This document shows positions 17,232 through 42,507 of a stretch of 64,000 nucleotides of DNA, piece after piece (positions within the stretch are counted from its first letter, which is position 1; each line of letters begins with the position of its first letter). Origin of the DNA: Nocardioides sp. Its GTDB lineage: Bacteria; Actinomycetota; Actinomycetes; Propionibacteriales; Nocardioidaceae. The position numbers were made by a program, and so were the translations under genes. The notes beneath the pieces are model-generated. The model worked only from the letters and a program-made list of their open reading frames with translations, searched no databases and was not told the DNA's origin. Location: contig NZ_JASBRN010000026.1 of the NCBI RefSeq assembly GCF_030149505.1, positions 1 to 64,000 of the forward strand, given 5' to 3'.

Positions 17232-17460
17232 AGCGGGGGTCGGGGCCGGTGCGTCGCCCCCGGCGCCGACGGGCGGGCGCACGGACGTGGGGCAGGCCCG
17301 AGCGCGCCCCCGGAGGAGCGTGGATGGGACTGGCCCCCTTCTCGTGAGGGACGAACGAGAAGGGTGGGTGCGACGAAGGGGGTGGGCTCGGGCCTGCCCC
17401 ACGTCCGCCGGGGCCCGCCCGACGGCGCCGCGCCGCGGCGCACCGGCCCCGACCCCCGCC
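17232..17460. repeat. Large palindromic structured element, copy A
   Basis: A roughly 230-base inverted structure fills the gap between the convergent aminotransferase and rplA genes. Outer arms (17232-17303 and 17387-17460) pair with few mismatches, including a perfect 22-base segment containing GTGGGGCAGGCCCGAGC. Inside is an asymmetric loop: GGAGGAGCGTGGATGGGA on the 5' side (from 17312) and TGGGTGCGACGAAGGGGG on the 3' side (17365-17382). The innermost hairpin CCCTTCTCGT / ACGAGAAGGG (17336-17364) has a nine-base loop. The same layout with a different stem sequence recurs at 41169-41308. Together with the hairpin at 17511-17544 this accounts for the gene-free stretch 17183-17569. Confidence 0.85.
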
Positions 17461-39901: not shown

Positions 39902-39940
39902 AAGCACTCTTAGGTCATTTTCTGACTTAAGTGTGTGCTT
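39902..39940. promoter_or_regulatory. Candidate operator between zwf and the ROK regulator
   Basis: In an A/T-rich pocket between the divergent genes, AAGCAC-TCTTAGGTCA is mirrored, imperfectly and with a two-base gap, by TGACTTAAGTGTGTGCTT around a TTTTC centre. A dyad of this size placed between a repressor gene and its likely target operon suggests an operator. It overlaps the expected promoters of both. Confidence 0.6.
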
Positions 39941-39950
39941 CACTCGCCGC

Positions 39951-41141
39951 GTGGTCACCGACGAGACCTGGGTCGACACCTCCCCGGGCGGCCTGCTGCA
40001 CCTGCTCCGCACCGGGCGCGCCGCCACGCGCGCCGACCTCGTGCGGCTGACCGGGCTCTCCCGTGGCGCCGTGACGGCACGGGTCGGCGCCCTCGCGGCG
40101 GCCGGGCTGCTGCTGGAGGGCGCCGACCTCGCCTCGACCGGGGGACGGCCGGCGGCCGCCCTGCGCCTGGACCCCGACGCCGGGGTGGTGCTCGCCGTGG
40201 CCGTCGGGCGCTCCCGCAGCCAGGTCGGCGTCTTCGACCTGGCCGGTCGGGAGGTCGCCGGCGACACCCGCGACCACGAGCCCGGCACCGGTGCCCGCGA
40301 CCTGATGCCCGACGTCGCCGCCCGGCTCGGCTCCCTGCTCGACGGCCTCGTCGCCCCCTCGGCGCCTCGCGCGCGGGTGCTCGGCGTCGGGCTGAGCCTG
40401 CCGGGCTCCGTCGACCCGGCCACGGCCACCGCCACCGACGCCCCCGTGATGCGCGGCTGGGACGGGGTCGCCCTCGCCCCCTACCTGTCCCCCGTCACCG
40501 ACGCCCCGGTGCACCTCGACAACGACACGTCGGTCCTGGTGCGCTCGGAGCTCTTCGGCCGGGTCCCGGTGGCCCGGGACATGCTGGTGCTCAAGGCCTC
40601 GACCGGCCTGGCGCTGGGCATCGTGGCCGACGGTCGGCTGGTCGGCGAAGGTCGCGGCACCACCGGCGAGCTCGGGCACACCCGGGTCGAGGAGGCCGGC
40701 GACCTGCTGTGCCGCTGCGGGGCGACCGGTTGCCTGGAGACGGTGGCCGGCGGCTGGGCGCTGGTGGCGCGGCTGCAGGAGGCGGGTCGCTCCGACGTAC
40801 GCCACGTGCGCGACCTCGCCGCGCTCGCCCTCGCCGGCGACCCCGAGGCCCGCCAGCTGCTGCGCGAGGCCGGCCGGCACCTCGGCGAGACCCTGGCCGT
40901 CGCCGTCAACCTGCTGCACCCCGAGGCGGTCGTCGTCGGCGGGGACATGGCCACCGCCTTCGACCTGCTCACCGCCGGGATCCGCGAGTCCCTCCATGCC
41001 CGCGCCCACCCGGCCGCCGCCCGGGCCCTGCGCTTCGTGCCGGCCACCCACGGCGAGGCCGCCGGGTTGCACGGGTGCGCGGCCCTGGCCATCGACCGAG
41101 CCCTGGACCCCCGCGCCGTGGACGCGCTCCTGCGGGAGTGA
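39951..41141 (+). CDS. ROK family transcriptional regulator
   Basis: 396 residues from the GTG at 39951. N-terminal winged helix (TRADLVRLTGLSRGAVTARV) is followed by a ROK sugar-kinase-like fold: VHLDNDTSVLVRSELFGRVP and the zinc-binding CRCGATGCLE motif. It belongs to the NagC/XylR-type repressors that respond to sugars. Divergence from zwf-edd-eda makes it the likely regulator of Entner-Doudoroff flux. A GTG six codons earlier (39933) is an alternative start but would overlap the candidate operator. Confidence 0.9.
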   Translation: MVTDETWVDTSPGGLLHLLRTGRAATRADLVRLTGLSRGAVTARVGALAAAGLLLEGADLASTGGRPAAALRLDPDAGVVLAVAVGRSRSQVGVFDLAGREVAGDTRDHEPGTGARDLMPDVAARLGSLLDGLVAPSAPRARVLGVGLSLPGSVDPATATATDAPVMRGWDGVALAPYLSPVTDAPVHLDNDTSVLVRSELFGRVPVARDMLVLKASTGLALGIVADGRLVGEGRGTTGELGHTRVEEAGDLLCRCGATGCLETVAGGWALVARLQEAGRSDVRHVRDLAALALAGDPEARQLLREAGRHLGETLAVAVNLLHPEAVVVGGDMATAFDLLTAGIRESLHARAHPAAARALRFVPATHGEAAGLHGCAALAIDRALDPRAVDALLRE

Positions 41142-41168: not shown

Positions 41169-41308
41169 CGGGCGCGCGGGGACGCGGCCGGCCCGAGGCG
41201 CCCCCCGAGGAGCGTGGGTGGGGCTGGCGGGCCGTTCGTGTGGAACGCGCGAACGGCCTGGTAGCGACGAAGGGGGCGCCTCGGGCCGGACGCGGCACCG
41301 CGCGCCCC
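41169..41308. repeat. Large palindromic structured element, copy B
   Basis: Second copy of the element at 17232-17460, again between convergent genes (ROK regulator and hmgA). Outer arms 41169-41206 and 41272-41308 pair over about 37 bases, with the 18 next to the core perfect (CCGGCCCGAGGCGCCCCC). The conserved internal loop is CGAGGAGCGTGGGTGGGG on the 5' side (from 41206) and TGGTAGCGACGAAGGGGG on the 3' side (41259-41276). The inner hairpin is GGCCGTTCG / CGAACGGCC (41230-41258) with an 11-base loop. Stem sequences differ from copy A but remain paired. Confidence 0.85.
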
Positions 41309-41331: not shown

Positions 41332-42507
41332 TCAGCCCCGGTCGCGGGCCCAGGTCCAGGCGTACTCCGGGTCCTCCACCGCCAGGGCGGCCTCGCCGAG
41401 CTCGAGCGGGGCGAAGGTGTCGACCATCACGGCGGTCTCCTCGAAGCGCTCGGCACCGAGGCTGGCCTCGATCGCGGAGGGCTGCGGGCCGTGGGCGTGG
41501 CCACCGGGGTGCAGTGAGATCGAGCCGAGCCCGATGTCGGAGCCCTTGCGGGCCTCGTAGTCGCCGGCGACGTAGAACATGACCTCGTCGCTGTCGACGT
41601 TGGAGTGGTAGTAGGGCACCGGCACGGCGAGCGGGTGGTAGTCGACCTTGCGCGGCAGGAACGCGCAGACCACGAAGTTCCAGCCCTCGAAGACCTGGTG
41701 CACCGGCGGCGGCTGGTGGACCTTGCCGGTGATCGGCATGTAGTCCTCGATGTTGAGCGTGTAGGGGTAGAGGCAGCCGTCCCAGCCGACCACGTCGAAG
41801 GGGTGGGTCGCGTACGTCATCCGGGTGCCGACGATCCCCTGGCTGGTGCGGTGCTTGACCAGCACCGGCACGTCGGTGCCCTCGCGCAGCAGCGGCTCGG
41901 CGGGGCCGTGCAGGTCGCGCTCGCAGTACGGCGCGTGCTCGAGCAGCTGGCCGAACCGGCTCAGGTAGCGCTTGGGCGGCGCGACGTGACTGCTGGCCTC
42001 CGTGGCGTAGAGCCGGCTGGGCTCAGCCGGGACCCAGCGGTGGGTAGTGGCGCGCGGGACCACCACGAAGTCGCCGGCTCGGTAGGGGACGGCGCCGAAC
42101 ACCGTCTCGACCACCCCGGAACCGGACTCGACGAAGACACACTCGTCGCCGATCGCGTCGCGGTAGTAGGCGCTCGGCTCGGTGCCGGTCACGACGTAGG
42201 TGAGCCGCACGTCGTTGTTGGCCAGCACGGTCCGGCGGTCGGCGACGGCGTCGGTGCCGGTCTCGAGGTCGTGCAGCCGCAGGTGCCGCGGGGCGAGCGG
42301 GTGGTTGGGGGTGCGGGACTGGTCCGGCAGCTCCCAGACCTCGCTCGCGGTGAGGGCCGAGGGGACGCCTCGGTGGTAGAGCAGGGAGGAGTCGGAGGAG
42401 AACCCCTCCTCCCCCATCAGCTCCTCGCGGTAGAGGCGACCCTCGGCGTCGCGGTGCTGGGTGTGGCGGGTCCGGGGGACGTCGCCGACACTGCGGTAGT
42501 AGGCCAT
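41332..42507 (-). CDS. hmgA: Homogentisate 1,2-dioxygenase
   Basis: Iron(II) ring-cleaving dioxygenase of tyrosine/phenylalanine catabolism producing maleylacetoacetate; 391 residues. Cupin-type core with PYYHSNVDSDEVMFYVAGD (His and Glu iron ligands) and ISLHPGGHAHGPQPSAIEAS (further His ligands); YKEE-like N-terminal region is shortened compared with animal enzymes of about 445 residues, as in other bacterial small forms. ATG at 42505-42507. Divergent from the fahA pair, sharing a control region. Confidence 0.94.
   Translation of the reverse strand: MAYYRSVGDVPRTRHTQHRDAEGRLYREELMGEEGFSSDSSLLYHRGVPSALTASEVWELPDQSRTPNHPLAPRHLRLHDLETGTDAVADRRTVLANNDVRLTYVVTGTEPSAYYRDAIGDECVFVESGSGVVETVFGAVPYRAGDFVVVPRATTHRWVPAEPSRLYATEASSHVAPPKRYLSRFGQLLEHAPYCERDLHGPAEPLLREGTDVPVLVKHRTSQGIVGTRMTYATHPFDVVGWDGCLYPYTLNIEDYMPITGKVHQPPPVHQVFEGWNFVVCAFLPRKVDYHPLAVPVPYYHSNVDSDEVMFYVAGDYEARKGSDIGLGSISLHPGGHAHGPQPSAIEASLGAERFEETAVMVDTFAPLELGEAALAVEDPEYAWTWARDRG

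Follow-up and report, generated by a model that had tools for sequence, protein, structure and literature searches.

Here, we describe a dispersed palindromic repeat of Nocardioides-type actinobacteria, two copies of which (A and B) lie in the window, the whole stretch of 64,000 nucleotides of Nocardioides sp. DNA that was analysed. We consider it probable, if well short of certain, that this repeat is mobile now or was so recently and that it acts as folded single-stranded DNA. The G-rich strand folds into a long hairpin in which a variable outer stem and a variable inner stem flank a fixed internal loop (5' GTGGWTGGGYCTGG, 3' TGGTW'), and in most copies the apex consists of tandem G.A/A.G pairs closed by a GNA triloop. 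According to our model, the working form would be single-stranded DNA exposed during replication or repair, and the fixed loop would be recognized by a protein. Terminator-like palindromes at gene ends may be invaded or displaced by copies, whose arms may remain complementary through a combination of selection for the fold with replacement or copying from one arm to the other.

Two copies of the element in the window

The features of copy B and its neighborhood are as follows:

41169-41308, plus strand: copy B, entire palindromic element (match to model R1 at 41185-41293, 104.3 bits)
41170-41205, plus strand: outer 5' arm, an inverted repeat 92% complementary to 41272-41307 (36 nt)
41207-41213, plus strand: 5' side (GAGGAGC) of the outer-stem zone of tandem G.A pairs, predicted from the alignment to pair with 41264-41271
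41214-41227, plus strand: 5' part of the conserved core (GTGGGTGGGGCTGG; family core GTGGWTGGGYCTGG)
41228-41258, plus strand: variable inner hairpin including the apex, from sequence and fold
41259-41263, plus strand: 3' part of the conserved core (TGGTA), from the family alignment
41264-41271, plus strand: 3' side (GCGACGAA) of the tandem G.A zone, pairing predicted
41272-41307, plus strand: outer 3' arm, inverted repeat with 41170-41205
39933-41141, plus strand: called ORF upstream of copy B and converging on it, ROK-like by eye
41332-42507, minus strand: called ORF downstream of copy B, converging, homogentisate dioxygenase-like by eye

Copy A is arranged as follows:

17291-17399, plus strand: copy A, element (R1 match, 112.8 bits)
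17320-17333, plus strand: 5' part of the conserved core (GTGGATGGGACTGG)
17365-17369, plus strand: 3' part of the conserved core (TGGGT)
17233-17253, plus strand: 5' arm (GCGGGGGTCGGGGCCGGTGCG) of a second palindrome enclosing copy A, exact complement of 17439-17459
17439-17459, plus strand: 3' arm of this second palindrome

The preliminary description had claimed that copy B keeps the internal-loop strings of copy A and that its stems differ yet still pair. Both statements hold for copies A and B and for the larger sample of copies analysed below, in which the loop is nearly invariant. Within the window, the string GAGGAGCGTGG (41207-41217) recurs exactly once, at 17313, and so does the string GCGACGAAGGGGG (41264-41276), at 17370. 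The inner stem of copy B is formed by GGCCGTTCG (41230-41238) paired with CGAACGGCC (41250-41258), and that of copy A by CCCTTCTCGT and ACGAGAAGGG. Folded as RNA, copy B reaches −119.3 kcal/mol (z = −7.4; none of 200 shuffles was as good), and its complementary strand folds more weakly than this G-rich strand (−107.7 kcal/mol, z = −5.9). Copy A lies inside the second perfect palindrome with its 21-nt arms. At the site of copy A, the core is found in the same direction in the genome of the window (G000) and in the relatives G143, G167 and G016, the outer arms of G167 and G016 being unlike those of G000 and G143; a separate hairpin on the rplA side is conserved there as well.

Anatomy of the family

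Across the aligned copies, the shared core sits between the variable outer stem and the variable inner hairpin, and the internal loop is nearly invariant, as are four GG tracts in the core. The W and W' positions pair as A-T in 40, as T-A in 23 and as C-G in one of 81 copies and are not Watson-Crick in the other 17. In the subtype of the window, the core-proximal zone of the outer stem has GGAGGAGC opposite GCGACGAA, an arrangement that may represent tandem G.A/A.G pairs interrupted by G-C pairs; this zone is Watson-Crick in other subtypes. A C-G pair beside the core is replaced by G-C in G167 and G016.

The apex was compared in 87 distinct copies, each with at least 11 paired arm positions; a small number of these are likely false matches. 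It is a GNA triloop in 77 (GAA 37, GGA 27, GCA 11, GTA 2), and the triloop is missing in 10, copy B included. DNA minihairpins of the GCGAAGC type are described as extraordinarily stable. The apex of copy B, TGTGGAACGCG, is without the GA/GA pairs typical of most copies, and copy B carries G at a position that in 77 of 81 distinct copies is A, T or C and faces a base mostly complementary to it (A 45, T 29, C 6, G 1); copy B is a slightly degenerate member of the family.

Copy number and spread

The two loop strings occur 20-60 nt apart 14 times in the 4.17-Mb genome of the window, and the pattern read backwards does not occur there at all, placing their association above chance. A search of this genome with R1, a model built from 11 copies, gave 28 places at E ≤ 1, of which 25 were below 2e-4. 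Because some of these 25 places are the two contig ends of one copy (the ends of C77 and C41 both match one G143 locus), the genome has somewhat more than 20 copies. Seven contigs of the assembly (C6, C25, C41, C62, C77, C78 and C86) end within a copy; the repeat probably breaks the assembly.

An exact search of 58 relatives with the strict strings recovered the own genome only, plus one likely chance match in G026, and the models found diverged copies. The core model R2, built from 26 diverse copies, had matches in 27 of 215 genomes of the genus, the own one included; at the level of the class, 11 of 394 genomes gave matches, the 6 from outside the genus being weak. R1 had matches in 16 of 196 genomes of the genus. 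A strict core pattern was found in 29 stretches of named genomes, including two Jatrophihabitans MAGs and one Nocardioidaceae MAG. Copies cluster, as in G167 where three lie within 320 nt. Altogether, the spread across the genus is patchy and multicopy. A viral origin was rejected, one strict core pattern having no match in viral contigs.

Covariation and the folding strand

When further copies were aligned and covariation was scored, neither unpaired stems nor freely varying loops, which the preliminary description had named as evidence against it, appeared. In alignment A3, whose rows were pre-selected for pairing (at least 13 paired positions), 22 of 25 pairs had double changes and the score was 0.502 compared with 0.130 for the shuffled alignment and at most 0.137 for slid structures; alignments A2 and A4 were model-fitted. 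For a permutation test of pairing, copies were picked by core sequence alone, 6 of 29 loci (set A) and 4 of 14 (set B) were excluded for short flanks, duplication or regex, and duplex energies were calculated over 30-nt arms. The mean energy of an arm with its own partner was −54.3 versus −30.9 with others among 23 copies from named genomes and −51.3 versus −38.8 among 10 copies from the own genome, and the own partner ranked first in its row for 16 of the 23 and 8 of the 10 copies, respectively. The corresponding values for the inner stems were −17.4 versus −13.3 and −19.4 versus −12.2. For arms and inner stems alike, in both sets, none of 10,000 permutations reached the sum of the own partners. 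Another pairing test, which was blurred by register shifts, gave a mean of 8.75 of 14 against 6.4 in the control.

Mismatches were tallied in the arm regions of 93 copies that lie away from the core. A.G mismatches outnumber C.T mismatches by 272 to 29, which shows that folding takes place on the G-rich strand; G.T mismatches number 134 versus 88 for A.C (P = 0.002), and all of these counts, like the P value, derive from related copies that are not independent. One strand, not both, is adapted to fold, which is compatible with RNA or single-stranded DNA. The small excess of G.T leans weakly to DNA over RNA.

Stems are replaced as units at some orthologous sites

We aligned 16 pairs of orthologous sites from G000 and G143. 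Many pairs are nearly identical, e.g., L035/L093, the site of copy A, and L029/L091 shows one clean double change. At 5 of the 16 sites, the inner stem is wholly different (L038/L087, the site of copy B; L031/L084; L030/L095; L053/L096; and L050/L089, for which the contig holds just the 3' half), and in four of these, L053/L096 being the exception, numerous differences extend to the outer arms. In L030, the 5' loop has been converted to the exact complement of its own 3' side, as in quasi-palindrome correction. Based on the wholesale replacement of inner stems at these five sites, base-by-base compensation is not the full explanation; replacement of units or arm-to-arm copying can also yield paired changes. 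The preliminary description had taken paired stem changes around a fixed loop as the mark of selection on structure: the pairing and the fixed loop are real, but base-by-base selection does not follow from two copies of an element whose stems can be swapped as wholes. That description also falls short of recognizing the element as a dispersed palindromic repeat. More generally, paired changes among repeat copies alone do not prove a functional RNA, since stems can be replaced or copied as units.

Site occupancy is largely common to G000 and G143, arguing that movement is slow or past. No exact pair of occupied and empty sites with a target duplication was found. At two sites checked closely, insertion of the element into an otherwise unchanged host palindrome was not seen; there, the element-free relative has a different sequence, in one case with a different palindrome.

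Genomic context and copies within an operon and a gene

Gene neighbors were called from codon usage, and 10 contig-edge copies of the own genome were excluded from the count. The remaining 16 own-genome copies comprise 10 between convergent genes, among them both window copies, 1 between divergent genes and 5 beside tandem genes, of which 3 are sense and 2 antisense; in G177 and G190, all 15 copies are convergent or antisense. A search for genes that recur beside copies gave, apart from broad families, only the shared loci infB-rbfA and pabB. One copy adjoins a small SRP RNA gene and a tRNA gene (L005:1060-1150 and L005:1318-1403), and a short string, AACCAGCGCCGAGTCA, is found repeatedly in the neighborhood of some own-genome and G143 copies (flanks of L036 and L032).

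In pabB (Chorismate_bind), the element lies in a linker and is read in frame, in the sense direction in G141, G158 and G212 and antisense in G143; in G000, the site is divided between contig ends. The matches in G141 (36.0 bits) and G158 (44.1 bits) are weak. Among pabB linkers from 24 genomes, 20 are without the element. A check of pabB at 30 loci detected the core in G141, G158 and G212 but not at another 25 (24 genomes); the matches in G143 and G000 start past the linker. Several element-free linkers (L266, L252, L259, L257 and L258) contain long inserts of other kinds, which gives the linker the appearance of a general hot spot for insertion.

In the gap between infB and rbfA, the element is antisense in G070, G121, G151 and G475, the last from another family. 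This gap could be parsed in 19 of 30 genomes (G151 is among the other 11), and it holds the element in 3 (G070, G121 and G475) and other sequence in 16, in many cases a simple palindrome. The copies of G070 and G121 are identical across 82 nt, compared with 557 of 600 positions in infB, 336 of 399 in rbfA and 17 of 26 and 46 of 54 in the rest of the gap. That the copy is more alike than its flanks suggests constraint or recent exchange, and no other finding weighs as heavily against a purely selfish element. Movement and cost could be tested at two clean sites, the pabB linker and the infB-rbfA gap.

Mobile neighbors and possible nesting

The Y1 (HUH) transposase domain PF01797 was found in none of 36 genomes, 18 of them carriers of the element, with controls positive in 5 of 14. 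In the own-genome copy on contig C33, the apex is cut by an insertion sequence (IS) of the IS110 family (PF01548 and PF02371), both halves of the element being present, and the G143 orthologue has no IS. The own genome holds one full copy of this IS, and 5 of 13 other genomes hold only diverged or very short matches; we therefore rejected it as the mobilizer and take it to be a visitor. The analysis turned up no mobilizer of the element.

One copy in G016 and G167 has matching 13-nt tandem units next to it in both arms (L112:1420-1760 and L225:2385-2640), GGCCGGACGACGG on the 5' side and CCCCGGCGGGAGG on the 3' side, which pair as a helix with a repeated internal loop. Together with the palindrome that encloses copy A, these units suggest that elements may nest. 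Many copies in G177, G190 and G209 (L206-L217 and L242-L244) lie beside a second palindromic repeat, GTTTCGACACGCTCGCTGGCGCTCGCTGCTCAACCAGCGG and its variants, in composite intergenic mosaics.

The apex motif GAGCGAGGNACGAGCG occurs 318 times in 66 of the 394 class genomes, compared with 9 times for the pattern read backwards. The exact motif is absent from the genome of the window, whose own apex is TGAGGNACGAGCG. For 23 motifs in 19 loci, many, not all, lie within long palindromes with other arms and loops. Loci from other actinomycete families (L348 and L350-L353) have variable perfect arms and a different fixed loop (AGGGGTAGGC...GGCGGGCGGGG) with the same GAGCGAGGNACGAGCG apex. The palindromes that bear this motif may form one superfamily. 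We tentatively raise the possibility, which we hold to be less than even, that this is an actinomycete superfamily of mobile DNA hairpins recognized via folded single-strand features (tandem sheared G.A pairs, a GNA triloop and a G-rich internal loop, possibly folded as a two-tier quadruplex) by a recombinase that has no relation to Y1 enzymes. Insertion of such hairpins into palindrome apices, with nesting, would then account for the copy-specific arms.

Alternative explanations

A structured RNA, either a 3' UTR element or a small RNA whose fixed loop binds a protein or ligand and whose stems compensate, would account for the covariation around the loop, the clean double change at L029/L091, the interspecies switch from C-G to G-C next to the core, the gene end preceding most own-genome copies and the identical infB-rbfA copies in two species. 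However, because copies lie in either direction in tandem contexts, are patchy and multicopy, are present or absent in frame in pabB and in one case have an apex split by an IS, we do not read the element as a regulatory RNA. The antisense position in the infB-rbfA operon, the occurrence of both directions in pabB, the lack of a matching Rfam family and a G.T count just 1.5 times that of A.C likewise speak against an RNA, which we regard as unlikely. The fixed core common to Jatrophihabitans, the copies in coding sequence and the strand bias of the mismatches are left unexplained if the copies are bidirectional terminators or mRNA 3'-end hairpins whose drifting arms are re-paired by quasi-palindrome correction with the core as a passive passenger, and the rplA-side hairpin conserved separately at the site of copy A is a further point against this explanation. 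It finds support in the 10 of 16 own-genome copies between convergent genes, the simple palindromes, different in sequence, that many relatives carry between infB and rbfA and the arm-corrected loop of L030; nevertheless, we hold it to be improbable.

Very improbable, in our estimate, is a chromosome-organizing or replication-related site recognized as a cruciform or G-quadruplex. The nearly invariant GG tracts of the core would suit such a site, and counts made by hand from copy positions and dnaA place copies in one strand sense relative to replication in 9 of 9 cases in G177 and 6 of 6 in G190 (3 clusters). However, the counts are 8 of 12 in G167, 5 of 8 in G422, 1 of 1 in G070, 0 of 1 in G130 and 0 of 1 in G141, giving a total of 29 of 38 that are not independent, and most of the genus is without the element. 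We favor a mobile or formerly mobile repeat that acts as folded single-stranded DNA.

Relation to known systems

Rfam gave no match at the element in the window at the gathering threshold or at six loci with E values up to 5; the element resembles Rfam structured RNA motifs in having covarying stems around a conserved internal loop and differs from them in matching no Rfam model. A limited literature search found no description of this repeat family, a term search of PMC3733652 gave no actinobacterial match, and four apex-type strings had one unrelated match only. Miniature elements of the MITE type are likewise small, non-coding and multicopy and have no enzyme of their own; here, however, no terminal inverted repeats of a parent transposon with these arms and no target duplication were seen. 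Rickettsia palindromic elements (RPEs) are, according to PMC10969869, palindromic repeats of ~100-150 nt that occur both between genes and in frame inside them. The copies in pabB are similar in lying in frame within a protein gene and being absent from orthologues. The RPEs, compared here by description, differ in organism and sequence, and the present element has so far been found in one gene only (pabB) and has copy-specific arms and a fixed loop.

REPs are described by Tobes and Pareja (2006, PMC1525189) as short palindromic repeats at gene ends that are targets of IS110-type insertion sequences. The element shares with REPs and BIMEs, which are associated with RAYT (TnpA-REP), the features of short extragenic palindromes at gene ends, multiple copies, clustering and an IS110-type insertion. 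However, the hairpin is much longer, its fixed part is an internal loop, and the absence of a Y1 transposase from all 36 genomes led us to reject REP/RAYT proper. If our model is correct, the palindromic repeats of actinobacteria gain a family whose spread does not depend on the Y1 enzyme associated with REPs.
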